DNA from: a virus
Virus record (IMG/VR): IMGVR_UViG_3300020213_000616
Location: 1 to 28,087 of that record
Strand: one strand, 5' to 3'
Length of the DNA: 28,087 bases
Shown here: piece by piece, positions 1 through 28,087 of the stretch
How the letters are laid out: every line of letters starts with the position of its first letter
How positions within the stretch are numbered: the stretch's first letter is position 1
Program-made: the position numbers and the translations under genes
Notes under the pieces: model-generated
The model's database searches: none
What the model was told of the DNA's origin: nothing
The model's input: only the letters and a program-made list of their open reading frames with translations

Positions 1-175
1 TCTTGAGCATCTTGTCACTTACATGATCTGCAATAAAGGTTACCTTTGGCCGTATTTCTGCAAAAGCTCCCATAAAAGTAGCTAAACACCGCATGTTCAG
101 CGTATCCTTATCATCCTGGAATATGGGCGATGGGTTACTTGATGGTATGGAGGTTATTCTATAAACTACGTGCAT
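1..175 (-). CDS. Partial gene of the sugar cassette, possibly a glycosyltransferase
   Basis: The reading frame is open from an ATG at 175 to the left edge of the window, giving 58 residues that begin MHVVYRITSIPSSNPSP. The start overlaps the last codons of the preceding dehydratase gene by 10 nt, as expected for a coupled operon gene, so I take this as the true start. No catalytic motif is reached before the window ends. The N-terminus (a short strand, then a Pro/Ser-rich turn, then a helix and the strand KVTFIAD) fits the first Rossmann-like unit of a glycosyltransferase, and the neighbours are all sugar enzymes. That assignment is inference only; hypothetical protein is the safe label. Confidence 0.6.
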   Translation of the reverse strand, partial: MHVVYRITSIPSSNPSPIFQDDKDTLNMRCLATFMGAFAEIRPKVTFIADHVSDKMLK

Positions 176-1338: not shown

Positions 1339-2279
1339 ATTTCTTCCTTAAATTCTATTGGTTTACTAATATCTTGTTTTTTCATCCAGTCCCATGTCTC
1401 ACGTAGCCCCTCTTCAAGGGGGGTCTCGTGATACTCAACTAAGCTAGATTGTAGACTATGATCTGCAATAAATAAATCAATTTCTTGCTTGCGGAGTGGT
1501 TTTCTGTCCACAGGGGTGTCGCTCTTGGTTATTTGTTGCAGGAGTGCTGAGAGTTGTTCAATACTCGCTATGTGTGTCGTCCCAACATTCATGGTTATTT
1601 TACTCAATCCATCGAGAGCTTGAGCGAATATTTTGGCCACATCTGGAGCGTATGAGAAGCCCCTACGAACAGAACCGTCACCAAGTATCGTGTATGGCTC
1701 TTTGAGGAGTATTTTTCTCATGAATATATTAACGACATTCTTAGTGAGATCGTTTGGATTCTGTCCTGGTCCATACAGGTTGTGTGGTCTAAATATCGTG
1801 TAATCAAATCCACACACCTGCGCCATTATCTTTAACTCTTGCTCGAATGCGAGCTTATTAACTCCATAAACATCTTTAGGGTGGGGTTGAGAGTCTTCTG
1901 CATAAGGAACGGGAGCATCTCCATAGACAGACACGGATGAGGCGTAGATAAACTTCTTTACCCCTGATTGAATTGCATATCTGAGTACATTGGTTGAGAG
2001 GAGTAGATTGCGACTCACCATATCAACTGGGCTAACCTGCCCCTTTGCTTCCGCAGCATTTGCTGCCAAATGATACACAGCGTCAAACTTCACCTGCTCA
2101 AATGCATGTCGTGTAACTGTAGACAGACTCACATCTGCCAAATCACCCAAAAAGACATTTCTTATCATTCCCATTCGATCAGTGCGAGACACTCCATACA
2201 CCTCATGCCCCTGCGCTTTTAGCAGAGTAACTAGGTGACTGCCAAGCAAACCTGAGTGACCTGTTACGAGTATTTTCAT
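1323..2279 (-). CDS. NAD-dependent epimerase/dehydratase (extended SDR family)
   Basis: The product is 318 residues, typical for an extended short-chain dehydrogenase acting on nucleotide sugars. The N-terminus MKILVTGHSGLLGSHLV contains the GxxGxxG dinucleotide-binding loop (Gly7, Gly10, Gly13). YASSVSVYG (about 112-120) supplies the catalytic Ser/Thr region and YGVNK (138-142) the YxxxK pair. RPHNLYGPGQNP and the later RRGFSYAPDVA are the usual substrate-side motifs of UDP- or GDP-sugar epimerases and 4,6-dehydratases. I chose the ATG at 2279 over an upstream in-frame ATG (2330) because AAAGGAGT lies just before it and it forms an ATGA overlap with the upstream glycosyltransferase stop. With the following dehydratase it probably makes a deoxysugar donor for the cassette. 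Substrate unknown. Confidence 0.9.
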   Translation of the reverse strand: MKILVTGHSGLLGSHLVTLLKAQGHEVYGVSRTDRMGMIRNVFLGDLADVSLSTVTRHAFEQVKFDAVYHLAANAAEAKGQVSPVDMVSRNLLLSTNVLRYAIQSGVKKFIYASSVSVYGDAPVPYAEDSQPHPKDVYGVNKLAFEQELKIMAQVCGFDYTIFRPHNLYGPGQNPNDLTKNVVNIFMRKILLKEPYTILGDGSVRRGFSYAPDVAKIFAQALDGLSKITMNVGTTHIASIEQLSALLQQITKSDTPVDRKPLRKQEIDLFIADHSLQSSLVEYHETPLEEGLRETWDWMKKQDISKPIEFKEEICLPQ

Positions 2280-3772
2280 GCCCACTCCTTTAAAATTTCC
2301 TTTGTATGTTCGCGCATCCACTTCACACAATCCTCATCCGCAACCTCTTGAGGAATGGTGTATTGAAGATCAATCGTTTTCTCAATCTCCGGATCTCTAA
2401 CAACGGGTAGCTTCCCCGCTTTTACTTGATTCACCATCCACTCAAACCGCGGATCGTTTAATCTTCTTGTACGATTAACACTCTTTCCACCCTCATCCTT
2501 ACCTAAAATACCCCAATGATCAATACACACACATTGATTCGTGTCATCAATCCACAACTTATGGCCAAGCTGTTTGGCTCTCCAGATTATCTCTGTGTCA
2601 TCCCAACCTAACGCTTCATCAAAGAACTCCCAATACCCATTCAAATGCTTGAGGGTAGACAGTGGCACTGCCCCATAGTTCTGCTCAAAGTCTGTTACGC
2701 TTTCAGCTAATCGGATACCACTATTTTGTACACGAATATTCTTACGCATAAACTCACCAATTACATCAAGATTGCCGTTAAACCAGTCTTCTGCATTTGA
2801 TAGGTCTGGTTTAATCTTAGGCGCAAAGTAGCTATCCACTGGTGCAATAAAGTCCCCAGGATGCTTTCTTGATACGTTTAGAAGTTCCTCAAGGGCTGTG
2901 GGGGGGAGTAAAATGAAGTCTTGCAAGAATACGAACAGCTCACCCGATGCTTTCTCAATCGCCAGGTTGTTTGCGTTACAGAGGCTATACGTACGATTCG
3001 TCTTAGGTTGATGAATGTATTTAATATCTAGGTTGTAGTCTTGTGCATACTTCTGGGCTATTTTCTCTCGGCTTTTTTCTTGTGCATCTACAATAATCCA
3101 CTCAAAGTTTTTGTGTGTTTGCGCTGCTAGATTAGAAGCCATCACGTTCCACCAACCATTTCTCAGGGTAGGCGTATAGACTGTTACCCTTCCATCTTTA
3201 GCAGGTTCTTGAAACTTCTCTTGCCACTTAACTGCTTGTTTTGACCAGTCATAATCTCTAGCAAACTTCTGGCACTTGCTACTCAACCGTTTCCACTCAG
3301 GCTTATCACCCATGAGCTTGATTAGCTTCTGCTTAAACTCGTCTTGAACCTCTCTCTTGTAGACTCCACCCTCAATTAAAATACCTTCTGCAGCAGTTTC
3401 TTTTAAAGCCCCCAGAGACATAGTGATAGGGACAAGACCGTCATTTTGACACTCAAGAGCAGTGATACAAAAAATCTCTGTAAAGTAGGTGGGGTACGCC
3501 CAGATACCACATTGCGATCTGATCTCTTCTAGTTTGTCTTTGCCAACTCTTCCGTGTTCGGTTATTCCTGGCTGTTTGAGCAATTCAACAACGTCATTTT
3601 TCCAAGCCTGGCGCTCCTTATTGTTTACAATGGCTTTGTCAAACAAATCCCAGCCGTAGGCGACGTCTAATGTGGCATTTGGGTATTTCTTCTTAACATC
3701 ACCCCACATCAAGAGGAGGATATCTAAGCCTCTATCGTACGAGCTACCATAGAATAATTTATGATGTCGCAT
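2276..3772 (-). CDS. Glycosyltransferase: C-terminal half of a GT4 (GT-B) domain fused to a GT2 domain
   Basis: The 498-residue product starts with what is normally the second half of a GT4-type enzyme. HKLFYGSSYDRGLDILL is the start of the donor-binding Rossmann domain. EIFCITALE is the E-x7-E motif and GLVPITMSLGALKETA the following loop. From about residue 195 a GT2 (GT-A) domain begins (GRVTVYTPTLRNGWWN), with a FLQDF segment where the DxD metal motif is expected and WDDTEIIWRAKQLGH near the end. The first half of the GT4 domain is at the end of the upstream gene, separated by a small zinc-finger ORF, so the original protein appears split. The ATG at 3772 has AAAGGAG six bases upstream, inside that small ORF. 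An in-frame upstream ATG (3877) is rejected because its extension is the small ORF read out of frame. Confidence 0.85.
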   Translation of the reverse strand: MRHHKLFYGSSYDRGLDILLLMWGDVKKKYPNATLDVAYGWDLFDKAIVNNKERQAWKNDVVELLKQPGITEHGRVGKDKLEEIRSQCGIWAYPTYFTEIFCITALECQNDGLVPITMSLGALKETAAEGILIEGGVYKREVQDEFKQKLIKLMGDKPEWKRLSSKCQKFARDYDWSKQAVKWQEKFQEPAKDGRVTVYTPTLRNGWWNVMASNLAAQTHKNFEWIIVDAQEKSREKIAQKYAQDYNLDIKYIHQPKTNRTYSLCNANNLAIEKASGELFVFLQDFILLPPTALEELLNVSRKHPGDFIAPVDSYFAPKIKPDLSNAEDWFNGNLDVIGEFMRKNIRVQNSGIRLAESVTDFEQNYGAVPLSTLKHLNGYWEFFDEALGWDDTEIIWRAKQLGHKLWIDDTNQCVCIDHWGILGKDEGGKSVNRTRRLNDPRFEWMVNQVKAGKLPVVRDPEIEKTIDLQYTIPQEVADEDCVKWMREHTKEILKEWA

Positions 3773-3956
3773 TTTTTCTCCTTTTGTACCAAGCGGCTTG
3801 TCTTGCACTAATCTTTTCTCGATTCTTTGCAGAGTATTCTTTGTAGTTTTTTCCCCTACATTCTTTACACGAACCATCTAATCCATCGGAGTTTTTCCGA
3901 CAAGCATAAAATGCTTCCTCAAGCATAGTCTTTTTGCAGACGGAACACTTCTTCAT
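3759..3956 (-). CDS. Small zinc-finger protein inserted in a glycosyltransferase gene
   Basis: A 65-residue basic protein with a CxxC...CxxC finger (Cys4, Cys7, Cys30, Cys33; Cys19 between) and a Lys/Arg-rich tail. The pattern C-x2-C, F, a Gly-containing turn, C-x2-C, Tyr resembles the zinc module often found in front of HNH endonucleases in phages, but no HNH motif follows. Its ATG overlaps the stop of the upstream glycosyltransferase half (ATGA). Its last codons contain the ribosome binding site and ATG of the downstream half. It therefore sits exactly at the break of a GT4 domain. A similar finger occurs at the C-terminus of the 20372-20794 product. DNA binding is likely; a role as relic of a mobile element is inference. 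Confidence 0.7.
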   Translation of the reverse strand: MKKCSVCKKTMLEEAFYACRKNSDGLDGSCKECRGKNYKEYSAKNREKISARQAAWYKRRKNATS

Positions 3957-5725
3957 GCTCTAATCCCATTACCCACAATAAAGGCCTTTCTTTCAGGCAA
4001 CTTGGGCAGCATCTTTCTGTGATACTGACTCTTAAAGAAAACCCCATCTATGGCGCTCATTACCTCATCAGAATAATCGACTTGATTGACAACATCATGT
4101 AAGTCTACATAGAAATTCTTTGCTTTAATTACTGGAGCTAAGATAGCATTTCTCCATTGAATGAAGATATTAAATTTATCCGCTTTGTTAAAGTAGTACC
4201 AAGGTAAGTATGTCACTCCATTTTGTTCACCCATGTATTCAGGATCACCATACACAGTAACTTTATATCCTAGTTCTACCCACTCAAGAGCAAGCTCAAT
4301 CACCGCCGTCTCAGAACCGCCAATACCTTTTTGCAGACTCCTACCATCCCACTTCTCAAAATGCTTCCCTCCAAAGTTAGCAAAGTAGCAGATCTCGTTT
4401 TCTTTCCAAATTCGAGGTGGAGTATTTGTGTGTCTAATCTTAATAGCCCACGGCTGCTCACTAATGACAATGGGGAGAGAGTTTAAGACACTCATTGCAG
4501 CCTTCTTGTCTCCAATAGCCTCCAGATACTCAAGCACCTTCTTTGAGTCCTCTGAGGCTGTCTGCAAATCGAGCAAATCCATGAGAAATAAAAGGTTTTG
4601 GTGATTGGCTTCAATCGGTTGCTCTCTATACAAAAGATTGGCTGCTTCGACTGCTCCCTTGAGGTCTTTGTCTACGTTATATTTAATCTTGAGAAGGAGT
4701 TGCGAGAATAACACCTTTAGCTCTTTAATGTTATTTATCCCGGCGGTCTTGCTGTCTAAATCTAACTGAGAGGCAATGCCAAGCCAGTGTTTACTCTCTC
4801 TAAACTTATCCATATTGAAATAGGACAGGGCAAGACGAATGTAGTGGAGTGGTTGATGTGGGTACTCCTCAATCGCTTTGTGTAGAAACTTAATAGCAGA
4901 TGGGTAGTTTCCAATCTTCGTATAACAAATTGCCATGAGATCGCAACAGTTCGCTCGCTCTTCATCCCAACCACTCTTGAGCAAATATTCTTCACCCATC
5001 TCTAAGCAAAGATTCAGATACTTAACATCCTCTTCCTCTGTGTAAATCTTCATTAGGTACAACAAAGTACGGGGATCAGATTCACCCTCTTCGCGCTCTT
5101 CTTCTAGTTGTAGCTCAAGTATCTCTCTGTTGCGCTCCAGCTTTCCCACCGCATCATCCATAGTAGAGAGGTGCATTACAGCAATGGGGCATTCATCTTC
5201 ATTGTAAGCGAATTTGGTGTAGTTATTCTTCTGGCCAAAAAGAGGGACCGGGGTCTCATGTAGTCTCCCTTTCCACTCAATTACTCCCGGACGGATAAGT
5301 CGCTCCCGGTAGTGTTCAATGTCAACCTCTTTAAAAGTTTCTAGTGATGGGTCCCCCTCAAACCTACATCCATACCAATACGCAAAGAATACAATATCTT
5401 TCCCACCCTTTTTAGCCATTTGCGCGCACTCTTTTAAGTATTGCCCACCAACAAGAATGTCGTCAACATCTTGCCACCAAATATAATCGACACCCTCTGG
5501 GACTTTGGAGAATATAAAGTTTCTCTGCTCGCTAAAGTCTTTATTCCAGGGTAAAAAGTGATAATCTCCGCCATGAGACCTCACAAAAGCCTCAATTTCG
5601 GCTGTTTTCTCGCCATTGGCTACAATGTGCCAAGAATCAACAAAGGGGATCACCGAAAGAGCGGATTTCTCAAAAGAACCCAGCTCTGAGTCGTCTTTTA
5701 TGATGAAAGTAGCTGCAATTTTCAT
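3953..5725 (-). CDS. Multidomain glycosyltransferase: GT2, TPR region, and N-terminal half of a GT4 domain
   Basis: The 590-residue protein begins with a GT2-like domain (MKIAATFIIKDDSELGSFEK, then VDYIWWQDVDDI with the DxD-like metal site, about residues 80-91). A helical TPR-type region follows (about 215-330; ICYTKIGNYPSAIKFLHKAI is a clear repeat). The C-terminal 150 residues are the acceptor-side Rossmann domain of a GT4 enzyme, marked by KGIGGSETAVIELAL. The protein stops right after FIVGNGIRA, where a GT4 enzyme would normally cross into its donor-binding half. That half starts the gene two positions downstream. The start ATG overlaps the stop of the upstream gene (ATGA) and has no obvious ribosome site, so coupling is likely. 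Role: transfer of sugars onto a phage or host surface glycan; acceptor unknown. Confidence 0.85.
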   Translation of the reverse strand: MKIAATFIIKDDSELGSFEKSALSVIPFVDSWHIVANGEKTAEIEAFVRSHGGDYHFLPWNKDFSEQRNFIFSKVPEGVDYIWWQDVDDILVGGQYLKECAQMAKKGGKDIVFFAYWYGCRFEGDPSLETFKEVDIEHYRERLIRPGVIEWKGRLHETPVPLFGQKNNYTKFAYNEDECPIAVMHLSTMDDAVGKLERNREILELQLEEEREEGESDPRTLLYLMKIYTEEEDVKYLNLCLEMGEEYLLKSGWDEERANCCDLMAICYTKIGNYPSAIKFLHKAIEEYPHQPLHYIRLALSYFNMDKFRESKHWLGIASQLDLDSKTAGINNIKELKVLFSQLLLKIKYNVDKDLKGAVEAANLLYREQPIEANHQNLLFLMDLLDLQTASEDSKKVLEYLEAIGDKKAAMSVLNSLPIVISEQPWAIKIRHTNTPPRIWKENEICYFANFGGKHFEKWDGRSLQKGIGGSETAVIELALEWVELGYKVTVYGDPEYMGEQNGVTYLPWYYFNKADKFNIFIQWRNAILAPVIKAKNFYVDLHDVVNQVDYSDEVMSAIDGVFFKSQYHRKMLPKLPERKAFIVGNGIRA

Positions 5726-6145: not shown

Positions 6146-6175
6146 TTTATACCCCTTTATTTCGTAGGTTGTCAA
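6146..6175 (-). promoter_or_regulatory. Late-type promoter for the sugar operon
   Basis: On the minus strand, TTGACA (6175-6170), an 18-bp spacer and TATAAA (6151-6146). The bases after the -35 read ACCT, as in four other leftward promoters here. Predicted transcription starts at about 6140-6138, on or next to the ATG at 6138. Confidence 0.7.
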
Positions 6176-6180
6176 ATACA

Positions 6181-6214
6181 AAAGACCCCCACTAATTTAA
6201 TAGTGAGGGTCTTT
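6181..6214 (-). terminator. Intrinsic terminator after the major capsid gene
   Basis: A 14-bp inverted repeat (6181-6194 with 6201-6214) with a 6-nt loop. In the minus-strand RNA it is fully paired, the single imperfection being a G-U wobble, and is followed by UUUUGUAUUU. On the plus strand the same position is a C-A mismatch, though GTTTTT follows, so weaker bidirectional use is possible. It sits between the capsid gene and the promoter of the sugar operon. Confidence 0.85.
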
Positions 6215-6236
6215 GTTTTTAGGACAAAGATCAGCT

Positions 6237-7178
6237 TTACAAGCTGTTCATGTACCCAGTTCTTCGGACACTAGCACGTTGTGCGAACGCTACAAGTGTG
6301 AATTCCGTCTTGTACATACCATTTTGACGGTGACCGTCTCGTGCCAACTCTTGCCACTTTGGTTCTTGGCCAACGAGGAAAGCGTGTTTAAACGTCTCTT
6401 CTCTTAGGGCGTAGACTGCCAAAGCATTTCCAAGTGTTGCAGACAAGTTGACGTTGCGGACATCTTTGTGAGGGATAATCTTAACTGTTTGACCGACAGT
6501 AGAGTCATATACTCTAATTTCGTTATCCAGTTTCTTATCACTTGCATCGATGTTGCGTGTCAAGTTGGACGTGAACGTCGCAATACGTCTCTTGATGATC
6601 ATTGGACAGACCAATAAGTCAGCAATGAATTCCATAGACACCTGGTCATAGGAATTTTGCATCATATCGTTCAATTCAAGCTCAGTAAAAGAAGTACCAC
6701 TTGATCGAGCCGTCACGTTGGTAGAGATCATGTTGTGGAACCCTGCCATACCTGAAGCGATACCAGAAGCACGAGCGACTACATCACCGTTGATGGTGAC
6801 ATACTCCATCTTTGCTTTGAGACGCTTGAGTGCGCGATCTTTTTGAAACGCCATAGGGTTCTCACCAGTGATGGCAGACATTGCCATTTGCGTATCAGAG
6901 ATGCGTACCGACTCGTCTAAGAGAACGGTGGAGTTACTCGATTTCTCAGGTGTAGCCAAGTCATCGTATGATGGGACTGAGCCTTCAATTACTCCAGTGA
7001 CTGAAGTTGGACGCGCCGTGTTGTAGACACCCCACTGATGTAGTGTGTTGGTGGCTGCAGGGGCAGTACCCAAGTTTGTCACGAAATAGTTATCTGTGTT
7101 AGGACTAACGTCTTTCAGAATAGACAAGAGTGACTCTCGCTTATCTGTAGCGTTAGAACTTTGTAGTCCAAATGGCAT
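6237..7178 (-). CDS. Major capsid protein (SU10-like, DUF5309-type)
   Basis: The 313-residue product matches in order and length the major head proteins of podovirus SU10-type phages: an N-terminal arm (MPFGLQSSNATDKRESLLS), a VTNLGTAPAATNTLHQWGVY segment, a DESVRISDTQMAMS stretch and the helical TINGDVVARASGIASGMAGF region. It then has long beta-rich HK97-fold segments, and ends KTEFTLVAFAQRASVRRTGY. The family call is from memory of its motifs. Support comes from context: it directly follows a scaffold-like gene and is followed by a strong terminator. The ATG at 7178 is preceded by AAGGAAAC. Confidence 0.8.
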   Translation of the reverse strand: MPFGLQSSNATDKRESLLSILKDVSPNTDNYFVTNLGTAPAATNTLHQWGVYNTARPTSVTGVIEGSVPSYDDLATPEKSSNSTVLLDESVRISDTQMAMSAITGENPMAFQKDRALKRLKAKMEYVTINGDVVARASGIASGMAGFHNMISTNVTARSSGTSFTELELNDMMQNSYDQVSMEFIADLLVCPMIIKRRIATFTSNLTRNIDASDKKLDNEIRVYDSTVGQTVKIIPHKDVRNVNLSATLGNALAVYALREETFKHAFLVGQEPKWQELARDGHRQNGMYKTEFTLVAFAQRASVRRTGYMNSL

Positions 7179-7202
7179 AGTTTCCTTTATTTAAAATTAA
7201 GT

Positions 7203-8012
7203 TTAGTGACCACTGCGCTCTAATCTCTCAAATAGTGCATTCGCATCATTTCGGCTTCTTCGCTTCAAATCCTCGAAATCACCACTTGATTGGTATTGCA
7301 CAGTACCTGGTGTGGCAGCCTGGCTGCGTTGTTCTTGTGCTTTGGTTGGAGCTTGCGTTCTAAAGTATTTACTCATGTTTTCGGCTGCCTTCATTGCATC
7401 TCGCTTTCCTGAAGTGACTATTTGACTAGTCAGCTCATTCCGGACGAGGTTGTAGGCCTCCTGCTTAAATACATCAGAGAGCGGATTGAGTTCGGGATAC
7501 GATTGATAGAGTGCCTTCGTTTCAGCGTCTTGCTCAAACTTAGAGATTCTATTTTCAGCATCCTGCGCTCTTCGCTCTGCTTGCTCTGCCATTTGCCGAG
7601 CCTTTTTAGCCTCGTCAAGTTCACGACGCAACACATCGCCATTAACATATCCTTGCTCATCCACCAATTGGGACTCGCTGACCTGTGGGGGTTGGTACTG
7701 CATTTGTGGCACAAACTGTTGAGGTTGTGACACATATTGCGGCACTGACGCAGGCGCTAGATAGTCAAGCACAGAAGGAATGGGTTGAGAATTCCCCTTC
7801 AGTTTTTTATTCTCCTCAGCCAGCTCTTTATTATGCTGCTTGAGTTTTTCAAATTGCTCACGAGTGCGATCTCTCACATCTTCTGGCAATTCATCACCTT
7901 GCGGTGCTTCTGTTGGTTCTTCTGGAGTGGACACTTCTCCGGGTTGTTCCTCACCTTGAACTTCTTCGATATTCTCGATTGGTTCTTCTTGTCCGTTTTG
8001 GTCTATAGGCAT
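7203..8012 (-). CDS. Capsid assembly scaffolding protein
   Basis: A 269-residue protein with an acidic, Pro/Glu-rich N-terminus (about 1-50), a short coiled coil (about 52-70), a Pro/Gln-rich linker (about 75-110) and a second long heptad region (about 125-160) rich in Ala, Glu, Arg and Lys. The C-terminal helical part is basic at the end. This composition and the position immediately before the capsid gene are the usual signs of a scaffold. The start at 8012 has GGGGAGG upstream. Its mRNA from the promoter at 8078-8107 would have a roughly 60-nt leader holding a 6-bp hairpin (8040-8045 with 8054-8059) and a nine-codon ORF (8055-8026). Whether these regulate translation is unknown. Confidence 0.8.
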   Translation of the reverse strand: MPIDQNGQEEPIENIEEVQGEEQPGEVSTPEEPTEAPQGDELPEDVRDRTREQFEKLKQHNKELAEENKKLKGNSQPIPSVLDYLAPASVPQYVSQPQQFVPQMQYQPPQVSESQLVDEQGYVNGDVLRRELDEAKKARQMAEQAERRAQDAENRISKFEQDAETKALYQSYPELNPLSDVFKQEAYNLVRNELTSQIVTSGKRDAMKAAENMSKYFRTQAPTKAQEQRSQAATPGTVQYQSSGDFEDLKRRSRNDANALFERLERSGH

Positions 8013-11500: not shown

Positions 11501-13006
11501 ATTAACAGCATCCATTGCCCTAAAGTATCTCTCGCCAGCGGGTTTAGTATTTTCCATGCCCGTTCCCTGCGATTTTTCAAAGGCAATTCTAGCATCAATA
11601 AATTCTTTTCTAACATCTGGAGTAAGGTCTTTCAAACTTCCAACAGCTTCTTTTTCTCCTTTAGCACCAGCTCTATAAAATGTAGTTCCTTGTGCATTAG
11701 TCTGTACATCAGCCTCTTGTGCAACATTATATCTGTTCTCTCCTCTTATTTTTGCATCAGCAAACTCCTCAGCACTTCCATACTTCCTGGCTTCTGCCGT
11801 GAGTGGGTCTGAGTCTGGATTCAACTTCCCAGTATCATCAATCTTGCCAACAAAGCCACCTTGACTCAATGTACCTCGAGCGTGTCGGTGTAAATCAGTA
11901 ACAATCTCCTCGTTAGTCATGTGGGAGGCAAGATTGGGAGATGATGAATTGCTTCCCCAGAACTCACGAGCATCTGCTGCGTCTGCTGCGCTAACTTTAC
12001 CCGTCTTTTTAAGATCGTTATATATTCTTTCAATAACACTAGATGGTTGTATGCCTATCTTCCCCTTCAGTTTAGACACAGGCTCGTCAAAGTTGTTCAT
12101 GTAGTCAGTGATGGACTTTTTGAGAGCTTGAGCGGTTCGATTGTCTCCCACCGCTCTTTCTGACAGATCAGCAAACTGCTTCTGGTTCTCTTCTATTTGT
12201 CCTATGTACTGTCGAGTAGCCACACCTTGAGAAAATCCACCCATGGCTGCACCGATTGCACCACTTGTTACTCGCTCTTGAGTGGTGGGTGCGCGGCCCT
12301 CATTCACTCTAGTTAAAACCTCATCTTCACCGATATTAGCGAAAGCATTGACCCCTGCACCAACACCAACGCGAGCAATCATACTCCCTTGTTGCCCCAA
12401 CTTACTCATAATTGGATTAGTGAAGAACTTGTCGCTTCCCTTATTAATACCTTTATACTGGAGTGCTTTACCCCCTCCGGCGCCAGCAGCTACTAAGGCC
12501 TCTTCATTAGATCCACCCATAGCTCTAGTTATTCCATACCCCAGACCACCAGAAACTCCCGTAGCGCCTACAAACCCACCTACCCCCATACCCTTTGCTC
12601 CAACGAGTTGGAGTGCTGTCCCTGCCGTTCCAAATGCCGCATCAGTCCGATCCTTATTCATTTGCTGACCCATGGTGATTTGTCTATCAGCTATGCGCTC
12701 TTGGGTTCCTGCAACAAACTGTGCCCTGTCTCGAGCAGCACTATAATTACCCTGACTCATAAACCTTTGTTCTTGGGAGCGAAGTGTGTCTGCAACACTA
12801 TTATCAATCTGCGCATTTCGACTGTTGAAATACATATCAAAAGGAGCGCGGATAGCCCCACCAACCCCACGACCCATTTGCTGAGGCGCTTGTCTGAAAG
12901 CTTGTCTGTGGTTTTCGGTAAGAGTACGTGCGCCAGAAGAAAGGTTGCTTATAACCTTACCTAGTCGGGAATTTTTCGCTTTTTCAACCAAGTCTTTAAC
13001 TGCCAT
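8582..13006 (-). CDS. Very large internal virion (ejection-type) protein
   Basis: At 1474 residues this is the largest gene. The N-terminal third has Gly/Ala-rich hydrophobic stretches (for example GTAGTALQLVGAKGMGVGGF and SGAIGAAMGGFSQGVAT) that could enter membranes. A mostly helical, charged middle follows. The part around FRYTNMLSSPNTHINNAF and VPFLQTPTNILKQGFEYSPL resembles the large-polyvalent-protein-type domain found in many phage internal virion proteins. Further hydrophobic segments (KAIIGSTVFTGAYAMASSGL) come next. The C-terminus is coiled, then basic and Gly-rich. Its place between portal-associated genes and scaffold fits a protein ejected with DNA in podoviruses. No lysozyme, protease or polymerase motif was recognised. 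The ATG at 13006 lies six bases after a -10 box, with no ribosome site. Confidence 0.75.
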   Translation of the reverse strand: MAVKDLVEKAKNSRLGKVISNLSSGARTLTENHRQAFRQAPQQMGRGVGGAIRAPFDMYFNSRNAQIDNSVADTLRSQEQRFMSQGNYSAARDRAQFVAGTQERIADRQITMGQQMNKDRTDAAFGTAGTALQLVGAKGMGVGGFVGATGVSGGLGYGITRAMGGSNEEALVAAGAGGGKALQYKGINKGSDKFFTNPIMSKLGQQGSMIARVGVGAGVNAFANIGEDEVLTRVNEGRAPTTQERVTSGAIGAAMGGFSQGVATRQYIGQIEENQKQFADLSERAVGDNRTAQALKKSITDYMNNFDEPVSKLKGKIGIQPSSVIERIYNDLKKTGKVSAADAADAREFWGSNSSSPNLASHMTNEEIVTDLHRHARGTLSQGGFVGKIDDTGKLNPDSDPLTAEARKYGSAEEFADAKIRGENRYNVAQEADVQTNAQGTTFYRAGAKGEKEAVGSLKDLTPDVRKEFIDARIAFEKSQGTGMENTKPAGERYFRAMDAVNKQLFADEIKTKSQLTDIYNQAKGTSQPKLQESTPLKSLQPETGKSSRIKIATQETQNPKLQTFQGKPIEPTGVKILTKKAEKVKAVSDGSSKIIISRDKKYAFNINKQKLQLDEAQSKELDAVVEVMRPVLEENKGKTLTKQEIINGGRKAQVLVEVVGRDEAKQFSESLQASRNLLRSEQAQVGITPKFLEQLEIVSSVAADAGRRLQAFNIGAEDITIKEMLLRDILKTGADIEDILKAGKDVDWNNSKEVTDFYRKFKPATLADKLDEFRYTNMLSSPNTHINNAFSNFIQTAVLVPVEKTVRGVVNFAQSKLTGKEQEYFARQGVDYARGYWKALPEAFGNFKKTLAGTEGLTKPDIEFIPTSTSKLRQIYTFPLQALEASDQFFRTLVKGGEIESLKTEGITGAKASKIAEQQADYRTFRQAFDPDGKLGQNGVLKMWDKWNVAINRLRNVPGGKWLVPFLQTPTNILKQGFEYSPLGFTTVRGSSEPATQMAKAIIGSTVFTGAYAMASSGLTTWDTPTNATEKAEFYAAGLQPYSMKIGGTWVSYSKLGPLAYPIAMASALKWAQDNGGDDDALTTMGSAFSGTLGFFADQSYVRGIGDIIDALRGDEYKQARGLSNIPAQLVPYRSFMGWVARQVDPVRRKSSGGSIPEQIGKSIVSQIPFASQSLEAHQTPFGEESLRQFPTINAYSPFSISKENPKEKEYYDARQELRNQKKEVNKVLDKIEAGEDIKINTDGMLAKQVASLTKKKVEAGIEVTQQELETTYLNNTLSMPQSNRYEKSQRESGLYSSLSTIDSNEYLTEQQKTDLKGKVALELGKTPQDLQIYSVAKGDNDSKTMYAYDQIDKSTSFDDTMSYLVNGRKPVNGQILVSDGVIDNLVADGVIPYALGKDIKDIDLNEDGTRKGTIKSRKGGRSGGGGKKSNAAQLKAFNDLGEDLRKIKIGTSKIRTTQSQRINTKGLTFSGR

Positions 13007-14702: not shown

Positions 14703-15051
14703 TTTTTGCTTCCTCTAACCCTATTCTTTTTTGCAGGTCTCGCATCCTACCCTCAGAGCCTGATAGTAAGGTTGTAAGTTCCTCAAAGGCTTTAGCCCTT
14801 GCCCACATCACGTTGTATGCCCTCTGAAACGCCACATCATTCTCAAACGATTGCGGGTCCAGCCATTTGTTGGCTTGGGTCAAAAGGGGGAGCAGCACCT
14901 GCTGGAGATCCTGACTGATCCAGAGGCGGTTGAGCGCCTGCTGCTTGATTAGATCCTTGCTGAACGCCTCCAGTCGCAATATCTGAGAAGAATCTGCTAG
15001 CGTCTCGCGTACCACTTGATTCAAAGATTTCGGTGAGGATTTCGGTAGCAT
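14695..15051 (-). CDS. Small helical protein overlapping the portal 3' end
   Basis: A 118-residue, almost entirely helical protein (VVRETLADSSQILRLEAF, then LWISQDLQQVLLPLLTQANK, then AFQRAYNVMWARAKAFEELT). The segment WLDPQSFENDVAFQRAYN resembles a family of small portal-adjacent phage proteins of unknown role. The first 70 residues are encoded in a different frame of the last 209 nt of the portal gene. Both products look protein-like there: the portal frame encodes a typical Gly/Pro/Gln-rich tail. AGGAAGGG about ten bases before the ATG at 15051 supports this start. A shorter internal start would remove a helix that looks conserved. Confidence 0.65.
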   Translation of the reverse strand: MLPKSSPKSLNQVVRETLADSSQILRLEAFSKDLIKQQALNRLWISQDLQQVLLPLLTQANKWLDPQSFENDVAFQRAYNVMWARAKAFEELTTLLSGSEGRMRDLQKRIGLEEAKNG

Positions 15052-16873
15052 TTGGTTTTTTCCCTTCCTGTTGCAGCAATGTTATCACATTCTGGTTATT
15101 GAATAATAAGTCGGTTGCTTCTCTTCGAGCTTGTTGCATCTCGCTATCAGCTCCAGCACTCATACTCTTCACATCTGGGATATAATTAAACGTACCGTTC
15201 ATGTCTTCAGGAACCAAGCTCAGCTCAGCTTCTGTCCCGGTTTCATCAATCTTCATCTTAGGTTTTATCTTCAGTTTTTCATAGTCTGTCTCTTCTGGGT
15301 TCTCAACTACTGGGTGTTTAGGTGTGTACCCAGCGTTCATTAACTCCTGCATCTGCAAGTCGTTCACATCACCATTTTGGGCAAGGATTGCATCAGCTAT
15401 TGTCTGGGTTGCCTCGTGGTCTAACCCCATCTCATCAAGCCCAGCCTGCTTGAAGAATGCAAAGTCTTTTTCTCCGATAATCTTAAGTACATACTCGTGC
15501 ATCCCCTGATTCGCAAAGAGAAACTGTTGGTTGTTGGAGAGCCACATATCCATCATGTCTACCAAAGCATCTGACAAGGCGTTTTGGTTGTCTTGATCTC
15601 GTACGTTCTGTTGCTTCTCTTGCTTATTCACTTCTGTAGCGGTCTTGTCTGGATTAAATGGGTCAACACTCCCAACACCCTGACTAGAATCTCCCATTGC
15701 TGTGCTAAAGGCAGATTTAAGCGCTGAATAGGTGGTTTGGAAGTATCGAAGTGGCTCACCTGATCCAACGTGTTCTGTAACAGCGTTCTCTTGATTGATA
15801 ATCCATTGCGCTTCTGGACCCCATTGGATCGTTTCCATGCGGGCCAAGCCCTCCAAGATCTTAAGCGGTGGCTTCATGTGAATATTCATGGTGTCCATGA
15901 AACCGTTGATAGTCGCCTGAATACCTCTCCAGAGTGAGAGAACAGACTCAACCTCAGACTCTCCCATAGGGTCATCTGAGAGAGAGAAATATTTTAATTG
16001 AACGAGAGGGATTTTCTTATGCTTATACGGGTTTTCAATATCCCGAAGTAAAACATTGTGTTTTGGGCTAAAAGTGATCCACTGGTTCTCCCGATACTCC
16101 GTTACAACCTCAATGACGGGGAAGGCCTCATCTTCACCAAGCCGGTCTGTTAAGCCTTTAAGCGACTTGATTCTTGACGTGTAGTTTCCATCACGCCTGT
16201 CTTGTGAGTTTTCTGCCAACGAACTCCTCAACTGCTCAAGGCCAGGATATTTAGGCTTGCCGGGGAGCTGGTTTTCGTTTTCCAACTCCTCAAAGGTGAC
16301 CCAATCGCAGACTTGTACCCACTTGGCATTGCGTATGTTGTCGCCGTGAGTTAAACCTACGTTTCTAACATCTAGGTGCTTGAACTCATTCCCGTTAAAC
16401 GTAACCTTTTTCTCTCCTTTTTCATCCGCATACTCACAGTATTTCCAGGTAACTAGCCCGAAGCATGAGGCAAAGAGCCGGGTGTCTTGATCCATCAATC
16501 CCCACTTATGGTTCATTGATCCACCATCTTTGGCGTTATCCCATTGGAAGTCTAGTAAGGCGTTGTTAATTTTTGCTCCAACAATGTCCGCCCCCTCCCG
16601 AGGAACTAAACGGCCTCGTAGCTTAGAGTTGGTGAGTCGCGCTTTCTTTTCAATGATTGTGGTGCGGAGAACAGGGTCGACAATTTGAGAGAGATACGGC
16701 CAGTTGTCAGGCAACCTGCCGAAATAAGCGTCTAAAACATCATTCCACCCATTCTCACGGGTCATTCTAATATCGCGGTCCTCTGTCCAGTCGACATAGT
16801 GGGCTTGAACCTCTTGGAGAATAGTACCCTTCATCGGCGAGGTTTTGTATTTTGTTTGTTTTTTGTCAGCCAT
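14843..16873 (-). CDS. Portal protein, podovirus type
   Basis: The product from the ATG at 16873 is 676 residues, the size of large podovirus portals. Recognisable parts are KLRGRLVPREGADIVGAKIN (clamp and wing region), a central block with KIPLVQLKYFSLSDDPMGESEVESVLSLW and IQATINGFMDTM (typical of portals, membrane-distal core), TATEVNKQEKQQNVRDQDNQ (stem and crown helix) and a Gly/Pro/Gln-rich tail. It would form the dodecameric DNA channel and bind terminase. Its position downstream of the terminase genes agrees. A TTG 12 codons upstream is rejected: it lies inside the -35 element of the promoter at 16882-16909, and the ATG sits where a leaderless transcript would begin. Confidence 0.85.
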   Translation of the reverse strand: MADKKQTKYKTSPMKGTILQEVQAHYVDWTEDRDIRMTRENGWNDVLDAYFGRLPDNWPYLSQIVDPVLRTTIIEKKARLTNSKLRGRLVPREGADIVGAKINNALLDFQWDNAKDGGSMNHKWGLMDQDTRLFASCFGLVTWKYCEYADEKGEKKVTFNGNEFKHLDVRNVGLTHGDNIRNAKWVQVCDWVTFEELENENQLPGKPKYPGLEQLRSSLAENSQDRRDGNYTSRIKSLKGLTDRLGEDEAFPVIEVVTEYRENQWITFSPKHNVLLRDIENPYKHKKIPLVQLKYFSLSDDPMGESEVESVLSLWRGIQATINGFMDTMNIHMKPPLKILEGLARMETIQWGPEAQWIINQENAVTEHVGSGEPLRYFQTTYSALKSAFSTAMGDSSQGVGSVDPFNPDKTATEVNKQEKQQNVRDQDNQNALSDALVDMMDMWLSNNQQFLFANQGMHEYVLKIIGEKDFAFFKQAGLDEMGLDHEATQTIADAILAQNGDVNDLQMQELMNAGYTPKHPVVENPEETDYEKLKIKPKMKIDETGTEAELSLVPEDMNGTFNYIPDVKSMSAGADSEMQQARREATDLLFNNQNVITLLQQEGKKPNATEILTEIFESSGTRDASRFFSDIATGGVQQGSNQAAGAQPPLDQSGSPAGAAPPFDPSQQMAGPAIV

Positions 16874-16881
16874 GGATACGG

Positions 16882-16909
16882 TATATAACAATGTATTTGA
16901 GGTTATCAA
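16882..16909 (-). promoter_or_regulatory. Late-type promoter for portal
   Basis: On the minus strand, TTGATA (16909-16904) followed by ACCTCAA, a 16-bp spacer and TATATA (16887-16882) with a TG extension one base upstream. Only eight bases separate the -10 from the portal ATG, so the leader would be about 0-3 nt. Confidence 0.7.
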
Positions 16910-19965: not shown

Positions 19966-19992
19966 CTACTTTTCCAATTCTTCTTTTACTGC
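19966..19992 (-). pseudogene. Remnant 3' end of an MKQHIT-family gene
   Basis: Read in the frame different from groES, this stretch encodes AVKEELEK and a stop, matching the ends AVKKELEK and AVKEVLEKG of the two family members with about 20 of 24 bases conserved. The groES stop overlaps it. It looks like the scar of a recombination that placed groES on the tail of a third family copy. Confidence 0.5.
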
Positions 19993-20291
19993 ACAACCGC
20001 AATCAGATCTTCATACGTGAGAATCTGAAATTTTTTGTCGTCAGCATTCACCTCATAGCCACTCCACTTTTTGTAAAGCACTCTGTCGCCAACCTTCACT
20101 GGACACCTGATTTCTTTGCCATGTTCCGTCATAACGCTCTCGGAAGCAGCTACCACGGTGCCAATGCTATCCTTTTCTTCTTGAGTATCCGCTAAAAAAA
20201 TGCCTGAGGTCGTTTTTTCTGCAACTTCTTGCGGCTCAATCAGCACGAATCCGGCTAGTGGGTGAATGCTCTTGATGGTAAGTTGATCCAT
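19986..20291 (-). CDS. groES: GroES-like co-chaperonin
   Basis: A 101-residue protein of typical Cpn10 size. It has HPLAGFVLIEPQEVAEKTTS at the N-terminus, the mobile loop TTSGIFLADTQEEKDS that binds GroEL, then GTVVAASESV, a beta hairpin with KVGDRVLYKKWSGYEV, and ends FQILTYEDLIAVVQ, equivalent to the usual ..ILAVV. It would cap the host GroEL ring, probably to fold the phage capsid protein as T4 gp31 does. AAGGAGAG lies six bases before the ATG. It is the first leftward gene after the divergence point, so it may be the promoter-proximal gene of the block, although I see no convincing promoter there. Confidence 0.9.
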   Translation of the reverse strand: MDQLTIKSIHPLAGFVLIEPQEVAEKTTSGIFLADTQEEKDSIGTVVAASESVMTEHGKEIRCPVKVGDRVLYKKWSGYEVNADDKKFQILTYEDLIAVVQ

Positions 20292-20371: not shown

Positions 20372-20794
20372 ATGAACTCATTTTGCATAACTTGCGACAA
20401 ATACTTCAACTCCCTCGGAGTGGCGAAATACTGCCCCCCTTGCAAAGAGAAGCGGCTTCCAAAGGCTCTCCCGAAGAAGAAGGAGTCTCTCTGCCTTACC
20501 CTCAAGGATCGCCAGAAGATCAACGCCTATGGCCGCTCAATTGGAGTCATTCAAGACTTCCGAGAGGTCAACGAAAAACTTGGGGATTTGTCGAGGCTTA
20601 AAAAAGACTACAAATCGAAGTTCGCCGATTCTATCCAGATAGAGGGTGGTTTCTTCTGTGACGTCTGTGGGAAAAGTCGCGCTGACCACTTTTTCAAGAA
20701 AGATTCTTCTGGGAAAAGAGATGGAACCTGTAGTTTCTGCCGGTATCAAAAGAAGAAGTATGGGGAAGCCTTCGCGTTTGATAACGACGCGTAG
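20372..20794 (+). CDS. Double zinc-ribbon protein, first rightward gene
   Basis: A 140-residue basic protein with two CxxC...CxxC sites: Cys5, Cys8, Cys21 and Cys24 (FCITCDK...KYCPPCKEKR), and Cys96, Cys99, Cys120 and Cys123 (FCDVCGKSRADHFFKK...GTCSFCRYQKKKY). A Lys-rich linker and a helix join them. The second finger is the same kind as in the 3759-3956 product. Two zinc sites around a basic middle suggest nucleic-acid binding. It is divergent from groES, where a regulator often lies. The ribosome site before the ATG at 20372 is weak (AGAAGAG). No nuclease motif was found. Confidence 0.7.
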   Translation: MNSFCITCDKYFNSLGVAKYCPPCKEKRLPKALPKKKESLCLTLKDRQKINAYGRSIGVIQDFREVNEKLGDLSRLKKDYKSKFADSIQIEGGFFCDVCGKSRADHFFKKDSSGKRDGTCSFCRYQKKKYGEAFAFDNDA

Positions 20795-20803
20795 TCTTTT
20801 ATT

Positions 20804-20812
20804 TGGTATAAT
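20804..20812 (+). promoter_or_regulatory. Extended -10 promoter in front of the structured region
   Basis: TGGTATAAT is a perfect -10 (20807-20812) with the TGn extension; no good -35 is visible. Initiation would fall near 20819, exactly at the left arm of a 21-bp imperfect inverted repeat. Confidence 0.5.
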
Positions 20813-20818
20813 AAACAC

Positions 20819-21430
20819 AACAAACCCTCGTTGGTATTGAACGGATAAGAAGTTCTCCAGATTTTCTCCCCGAAAATTTTCAATACCTGCGGGGGTTTGT
20901 TTATTCCCAAAAATTCGGCGCGGGTCGTTTTTTAAGGCTTTGATAGGGCTACGGTAGCCCCACCCTGAAAGAGCAATCTTTTCTCTCGGCTTATGAGAGC
21001 AAACTAATATACAGGACGGTTGAGGGAGCTGAGAAGCCGTTCTCCCCCCTACCCCCCTCTTAGAGAGAGCATAACATTGAGAGCGATTACTTCAGCCAGA
21101 TCATATTTCAATCTGGGGGACACACCCACCTAAAGCTCGAAGGGTCTTTGTGTCCATTTCTCATACAGTCCGGGTATCGGTCGCTTTATGAGCCTAGAGG
21201 GGTATTTTAACGTCGCACCCTCACATTAAAGTTCTCCTAGACGATTCCCAACAACCATATCTCCAATTGCTTAGCGATGCAAGGCTCTGTTTAGAAAACG
21301 GCAAAAAAGCTCTAGAAGGATCACCTCGCATAGTCTTGTGGACGCCGCCAAGTGATTTTTCTAAAGCTCTCGATGTATCAATATAAAAGCACACTAAAGG
21401 GAAAAAATCAACAGACCCAGCCTCACAATC
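20819..21430 (+). ncRNA. Candidate large structured RNA in a gene-free region
   Basis: No convincing gene lies between 20795 and 21488. Helices found by eye for the plus-strand RNA: 20820-20840 with 20880-20900 (18 Watson-Crick, 2 G-U, 1 mismatch); 20946-20951 with 20955-20960; 20980-20987 with 20995-21003 (one bulge); 21013-21021 with 21035-21043 (9 pairs, 2 G-U); 21080-21086 with 21181-21187 enclosing hairpins 21096-21116, 21118-21155 and 21170-21180; 21308-21324 with 21352-21368 (16 of 17 paired, 2 G-U). Seven G-U pairs on plus would be A-C mismatches on minus, against one case the other way, so plus is favoured. A weak terminator-like stem and T6 at about 20913-20934 could end a shorter RNA. 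Boundaries are uncertain. Large phage RNAs such as GOLLD and ROOL are the nearest concept; identity not established. Confidence 0.5.
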
Positions 21431-21436
21431 TCACTC

Positions 21437-21465
21437 TTGACACTGGGGTGCAGGTCGTTTATAGT
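21437..21465 (+). promoter_or_regulatory. Sigma70-like early promoter
   Basis: TTGACA (21437-21442), a 17-bp spacer and TATAGT (21460-21465). It leads into the small-gene cluster starting at 21489, whose ATG has GGGGAG upstream. Confidence 0.75.
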
Positions 21466-21488
21466 TGAGTGAAACAAGGGGAGAAAAG

Positions 21489-21656
21489 ATGGATCAATTA
21501 CTTGAAATACACCAGTCAATGAGAGTGAGCCGAAGCGTGTACCACTTCGAGGTGTACTGCGAATACTGTGGCGAAGAGACCACAGAGCTTTATGACGAAG
21601 ACACCGGCTGGATGTACCTTTGCGCTTGCTCAAACAATAAGGAGGGCTTTTTATGA
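21489..21656 (+). CDS. Small zinc-binding protein
   Basis: A 55-residue protein with CEYCGEE (Cys24, Cys27) and LCAC (Cys45, Cys47), probably one zinc site. The ATG at 21489 is preceded by AAGGGGAG at good spacing; a TTG in frame further up is rejected because it lacks a ribosome site and lies at the predicted transcript start. It is the first gene after the 21437 promoter, and its stop overlaps the next ATG. Function unknown. Confidence 0.7.
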   Translation: MDQLLEIHQSMRVSRSVYHFEVYCEYCGEETTELYDEDTGWMYLCACSNNKEGFL

Positions 21657-23350: not shown

Positions 23351-23809
23351 ATGAAAAAGCCAACAAGCCTAAAAGTAGGCGATATGTTTAGAGTGATTGG
23401 GGAAGACGGCGTCTTCGAGTCGGGAGAGATTATCTCGCTCAAAGAAGACGATGGTAGTGTTTGGCCATCCTTCTGGAATGCGAATAGATCTGATTATCAT
23501 TATATAAACTTCTCCGACCTCGAACCCCACGCCAAAACAGTTAGAGATGCCCAAGTTGATGATGTTGTGATTGGGAAAACTAGTGGAGAGGAATGCTTGG
23601 TGCTTGAGAGAGGACAGAGAACGGTTTTGCTTTCGCAAGCCAATAACTTCAAAAATTCAATGGGCAACTATACCTTTGACCGACTAGAAGAATTTTTCAC
23701 CCTCAAAGCTGCGCCAGAGGTAGTAGACGACAATATAGTCTTAACAATGAATGAAATCGCTGAGAAGCTTGGAGTTGACGTCAGTAAACTAAAGATAAAG
23801 AAGGAGTAA
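23351..23809 (+). CDS. Copy 1 of a four-member SH3-like paralogue family
   Basis: A 152-residue protein in two similar small beta domains. The first runs LKVGDMFRVIGEDGVFESGE, then SLKEDDGS and a variable W/F-rich loop (FWNANRSDYHYINF), to LEPHAKT. The second runs VRDAQVDDVVIGKTSGEECL to FDRLEEFFTLK. A C-terminal helix (LTMNEIAEKLGVDVSKLKIK) follows. VGDxxxV with short strands is typical of SH3-like barrels, but I do not recognise a named family. AAAGGAG precedes the ATG. Copy 2 follows directly and is very similar in DNA, pointing to recent duplication. Confidence 0.75.
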   Translation: MKKPTSLKVGDMFRVIGEDGVFESGEIISLKEDDGSVWPSFWNANRSDYHYINFSDLEPHAKTVRDAQVDDVVIGKTSGEECLVLERGQRTVLLSQANNFKNSMGNYTFDRLEEFFTLKAAPEVVDDNIVLTMNEIAEKLGVDVSKLKIKKE

Positions 23810-23811
23810 AT

Positions 23812-24267
23812 ATGGAAAAGCCAACAAACCTAAAAGTAGGCGATATGTTTAAAGTGATCGTGGAAGACTGCGTCTTCGAGTCGGGAGAGATTGTCACGCT
23901 CAAAGAGGACGATGGCACTGATTGGCCATACTTCTGGGATGCGCATAAGTCTGACTGGCATTGTATAAACTTCTCCGACCTCGAACCCCACCAAAAAACA
24001 GTCAGAGATGTCCAAGTTGATGATGTTGTGATTGGGAAACTTAATGGATTTGAATACATGGTGCTTGAGAGAGGACAGAGAACGGTTTTGCTTACGTATT
24101 ACGATAACTTCAAAAATTTAAAGGACAACTACACCTTTGATGAACTAGAAGAATACTTCACCCTCAAAGATGCGCCAGTAGTAGACGACAACGTAGTCTT
24201 AACAATGAATGAAATCGCAGAGAAGTTTGGAATTGATGTTAGCAAACTAAAGATAAAGAAGGAGTAA
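23812..24267 (+). CDS. Copy 2 of the SH3-like paralogue family
   Basis: A 151-residue protein, closest to copy 1: same leader AAGGAGTAAATATG, same opening TNLKVGDMFKVIVEDCVF and same C-terminal helix EIAEKFGIDVSKLKIKKE. Differences from copy 1 cluster in the aromatic loop (FWDAHKSDWHCINF) and in the second domain around LNGFEYMVLERG. Changes concentrated in the loop while the frame stays constant suggest the loop is the functional surface. Confidence 0.75.
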   Translation: MEKPTNLKVGDMFKVIVEDCVFESGEIVTLKEDDGTDWPYFWDAHKSDWHCINFSDLEPHQKTVRDVQVDDVVIGKLNGFEYMVLERGQRTVLLTYYDNFKNLKDNYTFDELEEYFTLKDAPVVDDNVVLTMNEIAEKFGIDVSKLKIKKE

Positions 24268-24521: not shown

Positions 24522-24956
24522 ATGACAAAGCCAGAAAACCTAAAAGTAGGCGATATGTTTAGAGTGATTGAGGAAAAAGGACTCTTTAATGCAGGTGAGA
24601 TTATCACGCTTAAACATGATGATGGCAGTGATTGTCCATACTTCTGGAAAGAAGATAAGTCTAACTATCGTGGTATGTTCTGGTCAAACCTCGAACCCTA
24701 CGCCAAAACAGTCAGATGCGCTCAAGTTGGGGATATTGTGATTGGTAGAGGTGGAGATGAATACCTTGTGCTTGAGAGGTGGCAGAATACTGTTGAGCTT
24801 TCCTGTAGCAATAACTTCAAAAAGTCAAAGGACAACTACCACTTCGATGAATTAGAAGAACACTTCACCCTCAAAGCTGAGCCAGAGGTAGTAGACACAA
24901 TAGCCGAGGCGATGAAGCTGTTGGAAGAAGCGGGATATAAAGTTACTAAAGAATAA
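24522..24956 (+). CDS. Copy 3 of the SH3-like paralogue family
   Basis: A 144-residue protein with the same two domains (LKVGDMFRVIEEKGLFNAGE; RCAQVGDIVIGRGGDEYLVL) but a different C-terminal helix, EAMKLLEEAGYKVTKE, shared with copy 4 rather than copies 1 and 2. The aromatic loop is FWKEDKSNYRGMFW. Copies 3 and 4 thus form a second subfamily, and both use the repeated leader without a strong Shine-Dalgarno site. Confidence 0.75.
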   Translation: MTKPENLKVGDMFRVIEEKGLFNAGEIITLKHDDGSDCPYFWKEDKSNYRGMFWSNLEPYAKTVRCAQVGDIVIGRGGDEYLVLERWQNTVELSCSNNFKKSKDNYHFDELEEHFTLKAEPEVVDTIAEAMKLLEEAGYKVTKE

Positions 24957-26002: not shown

Positions 26003-26476
26003 ATGACAAGACCAACAATCTTAAAAGTAGGAGACCAATTCAGAGTGATTTGGGAAGACAGCAACTTCGAGTTGGGAGAGATTATCACGCTTAAAAAGGA
26101 CGATGGCACTGATTGTCCATTATTCTGGAATGCGCATAAGTCTGACTGGCATTGGCCATTCTTCTGGAATGCGGATAAGTCTAACTGGCATTATATAAGC
26201 TTCTCACACCTCGAACCCTACGCCAAAACAATGAGAGATGCCCAAGTTGGGGATGTTGTGGTTGATAAAGATGGAGAAGAATACAGGGTACTTGAGAGGT
26301 GGCAGAATGGTGTTTTGCTTTCTGACTCAGATAACTTCCATGATATTTACACCTTTGACCAACTAGAGAAATACTTCACCCTCAAAGATGCTCCAGATGT
26401 AAAATCTGCCAAAACAGCCGAAGCGATGAAGCTACTCAAAGAAGCTGGATATAAAATTGTGATTGTGAAAGTATAA
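26003..26476 (+). CDS. Copy 4 of the SH3-like paralogue family, with an internal loop duplication
   Basis: A 157-residue protein of the same family (LKVGDQFRVIWEDSNFELGE; RDAQVGDVVVDKDGEEYRVL; C-terminal helix EAMKLLKEAGYKIVIVKV). Its aromatic loop is doubled: CPLFWNAHKSDWH followed at once by WPFFWNADKSNWH, encoded by a 39-bp tandem duplication. This is the only copy with two loops, so it is longer than copy 3 despite the same tail type. Confidence 0.75.
   Translation: MTRPTILKVGDQFRVIWEDSNFELGEIITLKKDDGTDCPLFWNAHKSDWHWPFFWNADKSNWHYISFSHLEPYAKTMRDAQVGDVVVDKDGEEYRVLERWQNGVLLSDSDNFHDIYTFDQLEKYFTLKDAPDVKSAKTAEAMKLLKEAGYKIVIVKV
26114..26191. repeat. 39-bp in-frame tandem duplication
   Basis: 26114-26152 and 26153-26191 are 35 of 39 bases identical and each encode 13 residues with the FWNA(H/D)KS(D/N)WH loop of the paralogue family. 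Confidence 0.9.
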
Positions 26477-27903: not shown

Positions 27904-28087
27904 ATGAATATAAAGACTTTCGGAACTATAGACCAAAGAGCATACGAACAATTAGTGAGGTGTGCTGAAAAAGGGAGTGCTGATTATGCTGTGCTTTGTG
28001 CCGACCACCACGTTGGCTACAGTCAACCCATTGGTGGAGCGATTGCTTATGAGAACTTCATTAGTCCATCTGGAGTAGGATATGACA
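27904..28087 (+). CDS. rtcB: RtcB-like RNA ligase, N-terminal part (cut by window edge)
   Basis: The 61 residues present include CADHHVGYSQPIGGAIAY and ISPSGVGYD, the conserved Asp-containing entry to the RtcB active site (family pattern D-x-H-x-GY-x-x-PIGG...P-x-VG-x-D-I-x-CG). The metal-binding Cys would be just beyond the window. RtcB joins RNA 2',3'-cyclic phosphate or 3'-phosphate ends to 5'-OH ends with GTP and Mn2+. In a phage it would repair tRNAs or other RNAs cut by host defence nucleases. The N-terminal 30 residues are shorter than in many bacterial enzymes. AAGGA precedes the ATG. Confidence 0.9.
   Translation, partial: MNIKTFGTIDQRAYEQLVRCAEKGSADYAVLCADHHVGYSQPIGGAIAYENFISPSGVGYD

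Follow-up and report, generated by a model that had tools for sequence, protein, structure and literature searches.

A modular junction region with an inverted candidate RNA module between the late and early operons of an environmental phage

We analyzed the 28,087-base IMG/VR record IMGVR_UViG_3300020213_000616 (the window, which is the whole stretch of DNA considered here; W in comparisons). Its genes include a leftward late block with a portal-like gene, the terminase large subunit, a DUF5681 protein and a GroES-like gene, and a rightward early block with an ERF-type annealing protein and a YqaJ nuclease (gene annotation). A small plus-strand gene (20372–20794) lies between the blocks, and after its stop at 20794 there are 694 bp without a convincing gene; the inner ORFs in the ORF list are short, and the next plausible start is the ATG at 21489, behind a GGGGAGAAAAG site. 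An earlier reading, made from the sequence only, had described this stretch as gene-free, and it is. A near twin, IMGVR_UViG_3300020192_000038, has the same arrangement as the window. The portal-like protein (14843–16909, minus) finds no counterpart among 50,697 named phage records, placing the group far from cultured phages, and the best named relatives of the terminase are Flavobacterium phages at 47% identity.

The surrounding genes have several features of their own. The GroES-like co-chaperonin gene (19986–20291, minus; Cpn10, E 1.3e-25) stands at the start of the late operon. The late strand also carries sugar genes (166–5725, minus), among them a DegT-type aminotransferase and glycosyltransferases, several with relatives in contigs L040 and L041. 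One early operon contains four paralogues of ~150 aa (23351–23809, 23812–24267, 24522–24956 and 26003–26476, plus) that share the motif KPxxLKVGDxFRVI, copies of which are also found in L004, L034, L035 and L036. At the right end, an RtcB RNA ligase gene begins (27904–28087, plus); by eye, no RtcB appears among the translated ORFs at the corresponding position of the near twin, so the two phages may part there. The features of the junction are as follows.

20795–21488, no strand: gene-free junction between the late (leftward) and early (rightward) operons (ORF list, sequence, gene annotation)
20804–20812, plus: extended −10 TGGTATAAT, which would start transcription at the foot of hp1 (sequence)
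20811–20906, probably plus: hp1, a long hairpin with a U-rich tract at its end (folding z-scores, inverted repeat)
20946–20960, no strand: palindrome GGGCTACGGTAGCCC (sequence)
21000–21245, minus: core of the module, with sharp ends (identity to a relative, covariance model R2, helix counts on both strands)
21044–21057, minus: G6-UA-G6 tract (C6-TA-C6 on plus), invariant in the alignment of three core homologues
21096–21116, minus: core hairpin H3 (21096–21102 with 21110–21116), whose changes keep pairing on minus
21118–21155, minus: core hairpin H2 (21118–21123 with 21150–21155), with compensatory changes across three phages
21160–21192, minus: core hairpin H1 (21160–21165 with 21187–21192), which pairs on either strand and slightly better on plus in one relative
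21197–21222, minus: core hairpin H4 (21197–21201 with 21218–21222), with a conserved loop and an invariant stem
21303–21372, minus: hpA, the module's 5′ hairpin (covariance model R1, energies, near-twin comparison)
21437–21465, plus: sigma-70-like promoter TTGACA-17-TATAGT before the early operon (11 of 12 consensus positions)

We compared the folding energy of the region with that of shuffled sequence. The sequence-only reading had proposed a single large structured RNA running rightward, with nine hairpins arranged around a multi-way junction. The whole region does exceed shuffles on the plus strand (z is −4.1 or −3.4 in two runs, compared to −1.9 or −2.2 on minus), but the excess stems from two hairpins alone: hp1 (20811–20906; z is −7.5 on plus and −4.8 on minus) and hpA (about 21300–21380; z is −4.9 on minus and −3.1 on plus). 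The intervening stretches, 20907–20999, 21000–21245 and 21246–21300, have z-scores between −1.1 and +0.7 on both strands; the ~390 nt separating hp1 and hpA fold no better than shuffles, and by energy the multi-way junction is not above chance. The helix proposed to close it (21080–21086 with 21181–21187) retains just the inner 5 of its pairs across the three core homologues, without variation. In a 100-nt scan of the record (1400 windows), hp1 on plus ranked second and hpA on minus third, and the core was ordinary. The strongest hairpin of the entire window lies elsewhere (6161–6260, minus, z is −6.7), in a gap between two late genes, and is probably a terminator. A whole-region folding score can arise from two isolated hairpins. 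Since the energy is confined to these two and the relatives divide the region into independently inherited modules (see below), a single large ornate rightward RNA is not supported.

The arms of hp1 (20819–20841 with 20879–20901) are an inverted repeat that is 87% complementary, in agreement with the long stem first read at 20820–20840 and 20880–20900, and the extended −10 said to precede it is present. The hairpin's energy is −37.6 kcal/mol on plus and −34.2 kcal/mol on minus, its foot is U-rich on both strands, and it differs from the near twin by 1 change in 103 nt. It is probably a terminator or leader hairpin, possibly a bidirectional one, and for hp1 only, behind the extended −10, a rightward reading is plausible. 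Extending that reading to the whole region, transcription from TGGTATAAT at 20804 would pass through hp1 and onward as the leader of the early operon. The −10 at the hairpin foot, the better folding of hp1 on plus by both energy and z-score and the whole-region plus-strand z-scores of −3.4 to −4.1 all agree with such a leader. However, the early operon is preceded by a promoter of its own at 21437 that looks stronger, hpA and the core favor minus, hp1 lacks informative variation and sites of the TGGTATAAT type are found elsewhere in the window (3 compared to 0.7 expected). We consider a rightward early-operon leader decidedly improbable.

The relatives show how the junction is built. Three contigs, L003, L004 and L038, come from the window's phage group (portal protein identity about 89–90%; terminase 93–94% for L003 and L004), and L003 and L004 have about 620–840 gene-free bases at the same junction when small spurious ORFs are set aside. 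In all three, a conserved TTGMTA-17-TATGTT element is followed by 119–140 nt containing a strong, terminator-like hairpin (with a T-run in L003 and L038) and then by an hpA-type hairpin on the strand reading into the early genes. The sequence 3′ of hpA differs between phages: L038 has the core, and L003 and L004 have two unrelated domains of ~230–280 nt, neither of which has sequence similarity to the core above shuffles. The early genes follow the hairpin and its domain, including a RusA-like gene in L003 and L004 (named from sequence by eye). On the late side of the junction, L003 and L038 also carry GGCTACNNTAGG repeats related to the palindrome at 20946–20960.

We characterized hpA with model R1, a covariance model of the junction hairpin of L003, L004 and L038. 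In these three phages, the hairpin has 22 pairs with 95.5% of cells paired. Its changes include two double ones and several that create or remove a G-U pair, and on the RNA strand it folds with −30.2, −29.1 and −26.0 kcal/mol, compared to −15.7, −8.4 and −6.9 kcal/mol on the other strand. With filters off over 901 nt, R1 scored 23.9 bits on minus (window positions 21370–21304; E 3.8e-5) compared to 3.1 bits on plus. The window's hairpin (~20 bp, with a U6 run at its 3′ foot on minus) contains the stem read earlier at 21308–21324 and 21352–21368, has an energy of −31.7 kcal/mol on minus compared to −24.0 kcal/mol on plus, and keeps the conserved loop motif UUGGC...GCGAG though its loop is 11 nt longer than those of the relatives; it has 0 changes in 70 nt from the near twin. 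R1 found the window's copy only with filters off on a short stretch, and its homology is moderate because a larger R1 search with default filters did not report it. Over the whole contigs of 20 related records, R1 reported only L003, L004 and L038. The comparison covers four distinct sequences, and the 3′-letter shuffle control was not exceeded (229 of 500).

Homologous cores are present in W, L002 and L038, with L038:214–467 being 79% identical to window positions 21000–21245. In L038, portal and core match share the plus strand. The window has its core match on plus and its portal on minus; relative to the operons, the core is thus inverted. Two separate contigs, the window and the near twin, show the core in this orientation, which makes an assembly error in the window unlikely. 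In L038 as in the window, hpA precedes the core, and the two lie on one strand. Read on plus, the window has the extended −10 and hp1 in the place of the relatives' promoter and first hairpin, then the flipped module, then the 21437 promoter. The window's hpA and core are unequally similar to L038 (weak compared to 79%), and so may have separate histories. Between hpA and the core, the window also has a promoter-like element, TTGCAT-17-TATGGT (21254–21282, minus; 4 of 6 positions in each hexamer), that resembles the relatives' TTGMTA-17-TATGTT in shape.

Searches beyond this group covered more distant phages and named collections. The models found no hpA or core at the more distant junctions of L011, L012 and L174, where the hairpins are weaker. 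L174 itself has a 1.2-kb gene-free early/late junction (6452–7680 of a 49-kb contig) with one strong hairpin, and L019, which carries a similar terminase, has a group I intron match at gathering score (12661–12920, 50.1 bits). A DNA search of named phage and plasmid collections with the region or its homologue returned no match. The exact 16-mer TTTAACGTCGCACCCT had only chance matches in viral contigs beyond the known homologues, and among the matches listed for the exact 16-mer CGATTACTTCAGCCAG in GTDB genomes, none extends over the core. Altogether, the searches gave three distinct core sequences and four distinct junctions of this type.

We next consider the core's strand. The same four hairpins, H1 to H4, have 1 of 102 cells unpaired on minus compared to 8 of 102 on plus; of the plus-strand pairs, one is non-standard in every row. 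Two neighboring pairs of H2 run U-A, U-G and C-G, and G-C, G-U and A-U, from L038 through the near twin to the window; this is a compensatory path via wobble, and the near twin's G-U intermediate exists only on minus. H3, too, stays paired only on minus, two of its pairs being broken on plus in one or two sequences. Double changes number 4, compared to 0 in all slid controls, and variable-but-kept pairs are in excess on minus (a level reached by 2 of 60 shuffles) and not on plus (43 of 60). The 3′-letter shuffle control was not exceeded (53 of 500), alignment shuffles give a folding z of about −1.7 on both strands, and the covariation test is weak because it has only three sequences. A conserved 9-bp helix on plus, AGGACGGTT/AGCCGTTCT, favors plus, as H1 does. 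The core is also among the fastest-diverging parts of the genome, differing from the near twin by 6.1% compared to <1% for neighboring genes, and a coding role finds no support in it: the three homologues have their longest open stretches in different frames and of different lengths, and the frame is disrupted by indels of 1 and 11 nt.

The compensatory changes and G-U intermediates place hpA on the leftward strand and, less firmly, the core, for which leftward is favored short of proof; conserved structure on one strand is seen in hpA and, more weakly, in the core. The wobble counts that had been taken to favor a rightward RNA fail for these homologous parts, and strand must be read from homologues rather than from wobble counts in one sequence.

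An element that acts as DNA, such as a replication origin or a recombination or packaging site, would work either way round, with hairpins that are incidental. The core's occurrence in both orientations relative to the genes, its ordinary RNA folding energy and the conserved C6-TA-C6 tract, an oddity that the first reading had correctly placed at 21044–21057, are consistent with this, as is a cumulative GC skew minimum at 20–22 kb. That minimum, however, is confounded by the switch of coding strand with which it coincides. The junction region has neither DnaA boxes nor an iteron family, as a DnaA-type origin would, and DNA would not need the changes in H2, H3 and hpA to be kept as G-U on one strand. 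We regard a DNA element as doubtful.

The core's sharp ends at 21000 and 21245, the different flanks in W and L038, the inverted orientation between them and the other domains that occupy this site in L003 and L004 would also be expected of a small mobile cassette, a non-autonomous element that enters junctions in either orientation and has no role for the phage. Yet no terminal inverted repeats or target duplications were seen by eye at the core's ends, and the core was found only at this junction in the contigs searched, with nothing in the phage and plasmid collections. In both phages, moreover, an hpA-like hairpin precedes it on its own strand, as expected if the two cooperate. A mobile cassette is, in our view, quite unlikely.

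From the modularity, inversion, homology and strand bias described above, we infer that the module may be a structured leader or regulatory RNA, modular in design and flipped in this phage to give a separate leftward transcript, a reading that we hold to be evenly balanced. The junction would be a late/early control region carrying several small RNA parts. Its leftward-reading module of ~370 bases would begin with hpA and its conserved loop and continue into a ~245-nt core with small hairpins. In the relatives, the module would lie within the early operon's leader, between the promoter with its terminator-like hairpin and the first early genes; hpA could be a processing, stability or protein-binding hairpin, and the domain downstream of it would be exchangeable. 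With the module flipped in this phage, it would be transcribed on its own as a leftward RNA that is antisense to rightward transcripts from the 20804 promoter and would probably end at hp1.

A bolder version is doubtful: that this is a new class of phage RNA with a constant 5′ hairpin (loop UUGGC...GCGAG) and swappable 3′ domains of ~250 nt, a cassette that is exchanged between phages and can flip, switching a cis-acting early leader into a stand-alone antisense RNA. If transcribed, the module would be an RNA not yet catalogued, found in a group of environmental phages, with its domain swapped and its orientation flipped while the neighboring genes stay.

Among known RNAs, GOLLD and ROOL had been named in the first reading, which took the region for a member of that kind of class or of a new one. 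Rfam (cmscan) gave no match on the whole window at gathering score, and none to GOLLD, ROOL or phage pRNA on 20700–21520 at E up to 5; nothing relevant appeared at the junctions of the relatives at gathering score, nor in L003 and L004 at a relaxed E-value. Membership in GOLLD or ROOL is accordingly rejected, and phage pRNA likewise. GOLLD and ROOL often lie near tRNA islands, frequently but not obligatorily for GOLLD (PMC12286853), and the window has no tRNA genes. Like those RNAs (PMC12286853), the region is phage-encoded and gene-free for several hundred bases. Unlike them, its folding energy is limited to two hairpins and its homologous parts run opposite to the direction first claimed; rather than a single elaborate, covariation-backed fold over several hundred nucleotides, as in ROOL, it is modular, and only hp1 and hpA exceed shuffles. 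The first reading therefore stands in that the region is gene-free, structured and outside any Rfam family, but not as to a single RNA, its direction or its class.

Two other known systems invite comparison. Like phage intrinsic terminators, hp1 has terminator-like anatomy, and so does the window's hpA, which carries a U6 run on minus; but hp1 far exceeds the usual terminator in length, and a terminator has no need of the conserved loop motif seen in hpA. Among the structured leaders of phage early transcripts are the lambda N leader with its RNase III hairpin and the put RNAs of HK022. The module's likeness to them is one of arrangement rather than of sequence or structure, and a simple put-like cis antiterminator does not fit, given the relatives' terminator-like hairpin upstream of the module. 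The relatives likewise have a promoter, hairpins and an untranslated leader before the early genes, and the early-operon leader position fits in L003, L004 and L038, whereas in W the module is inverted and points away from the early operon. By analogy, structured phage early leaders appear to be the nearest functional class.
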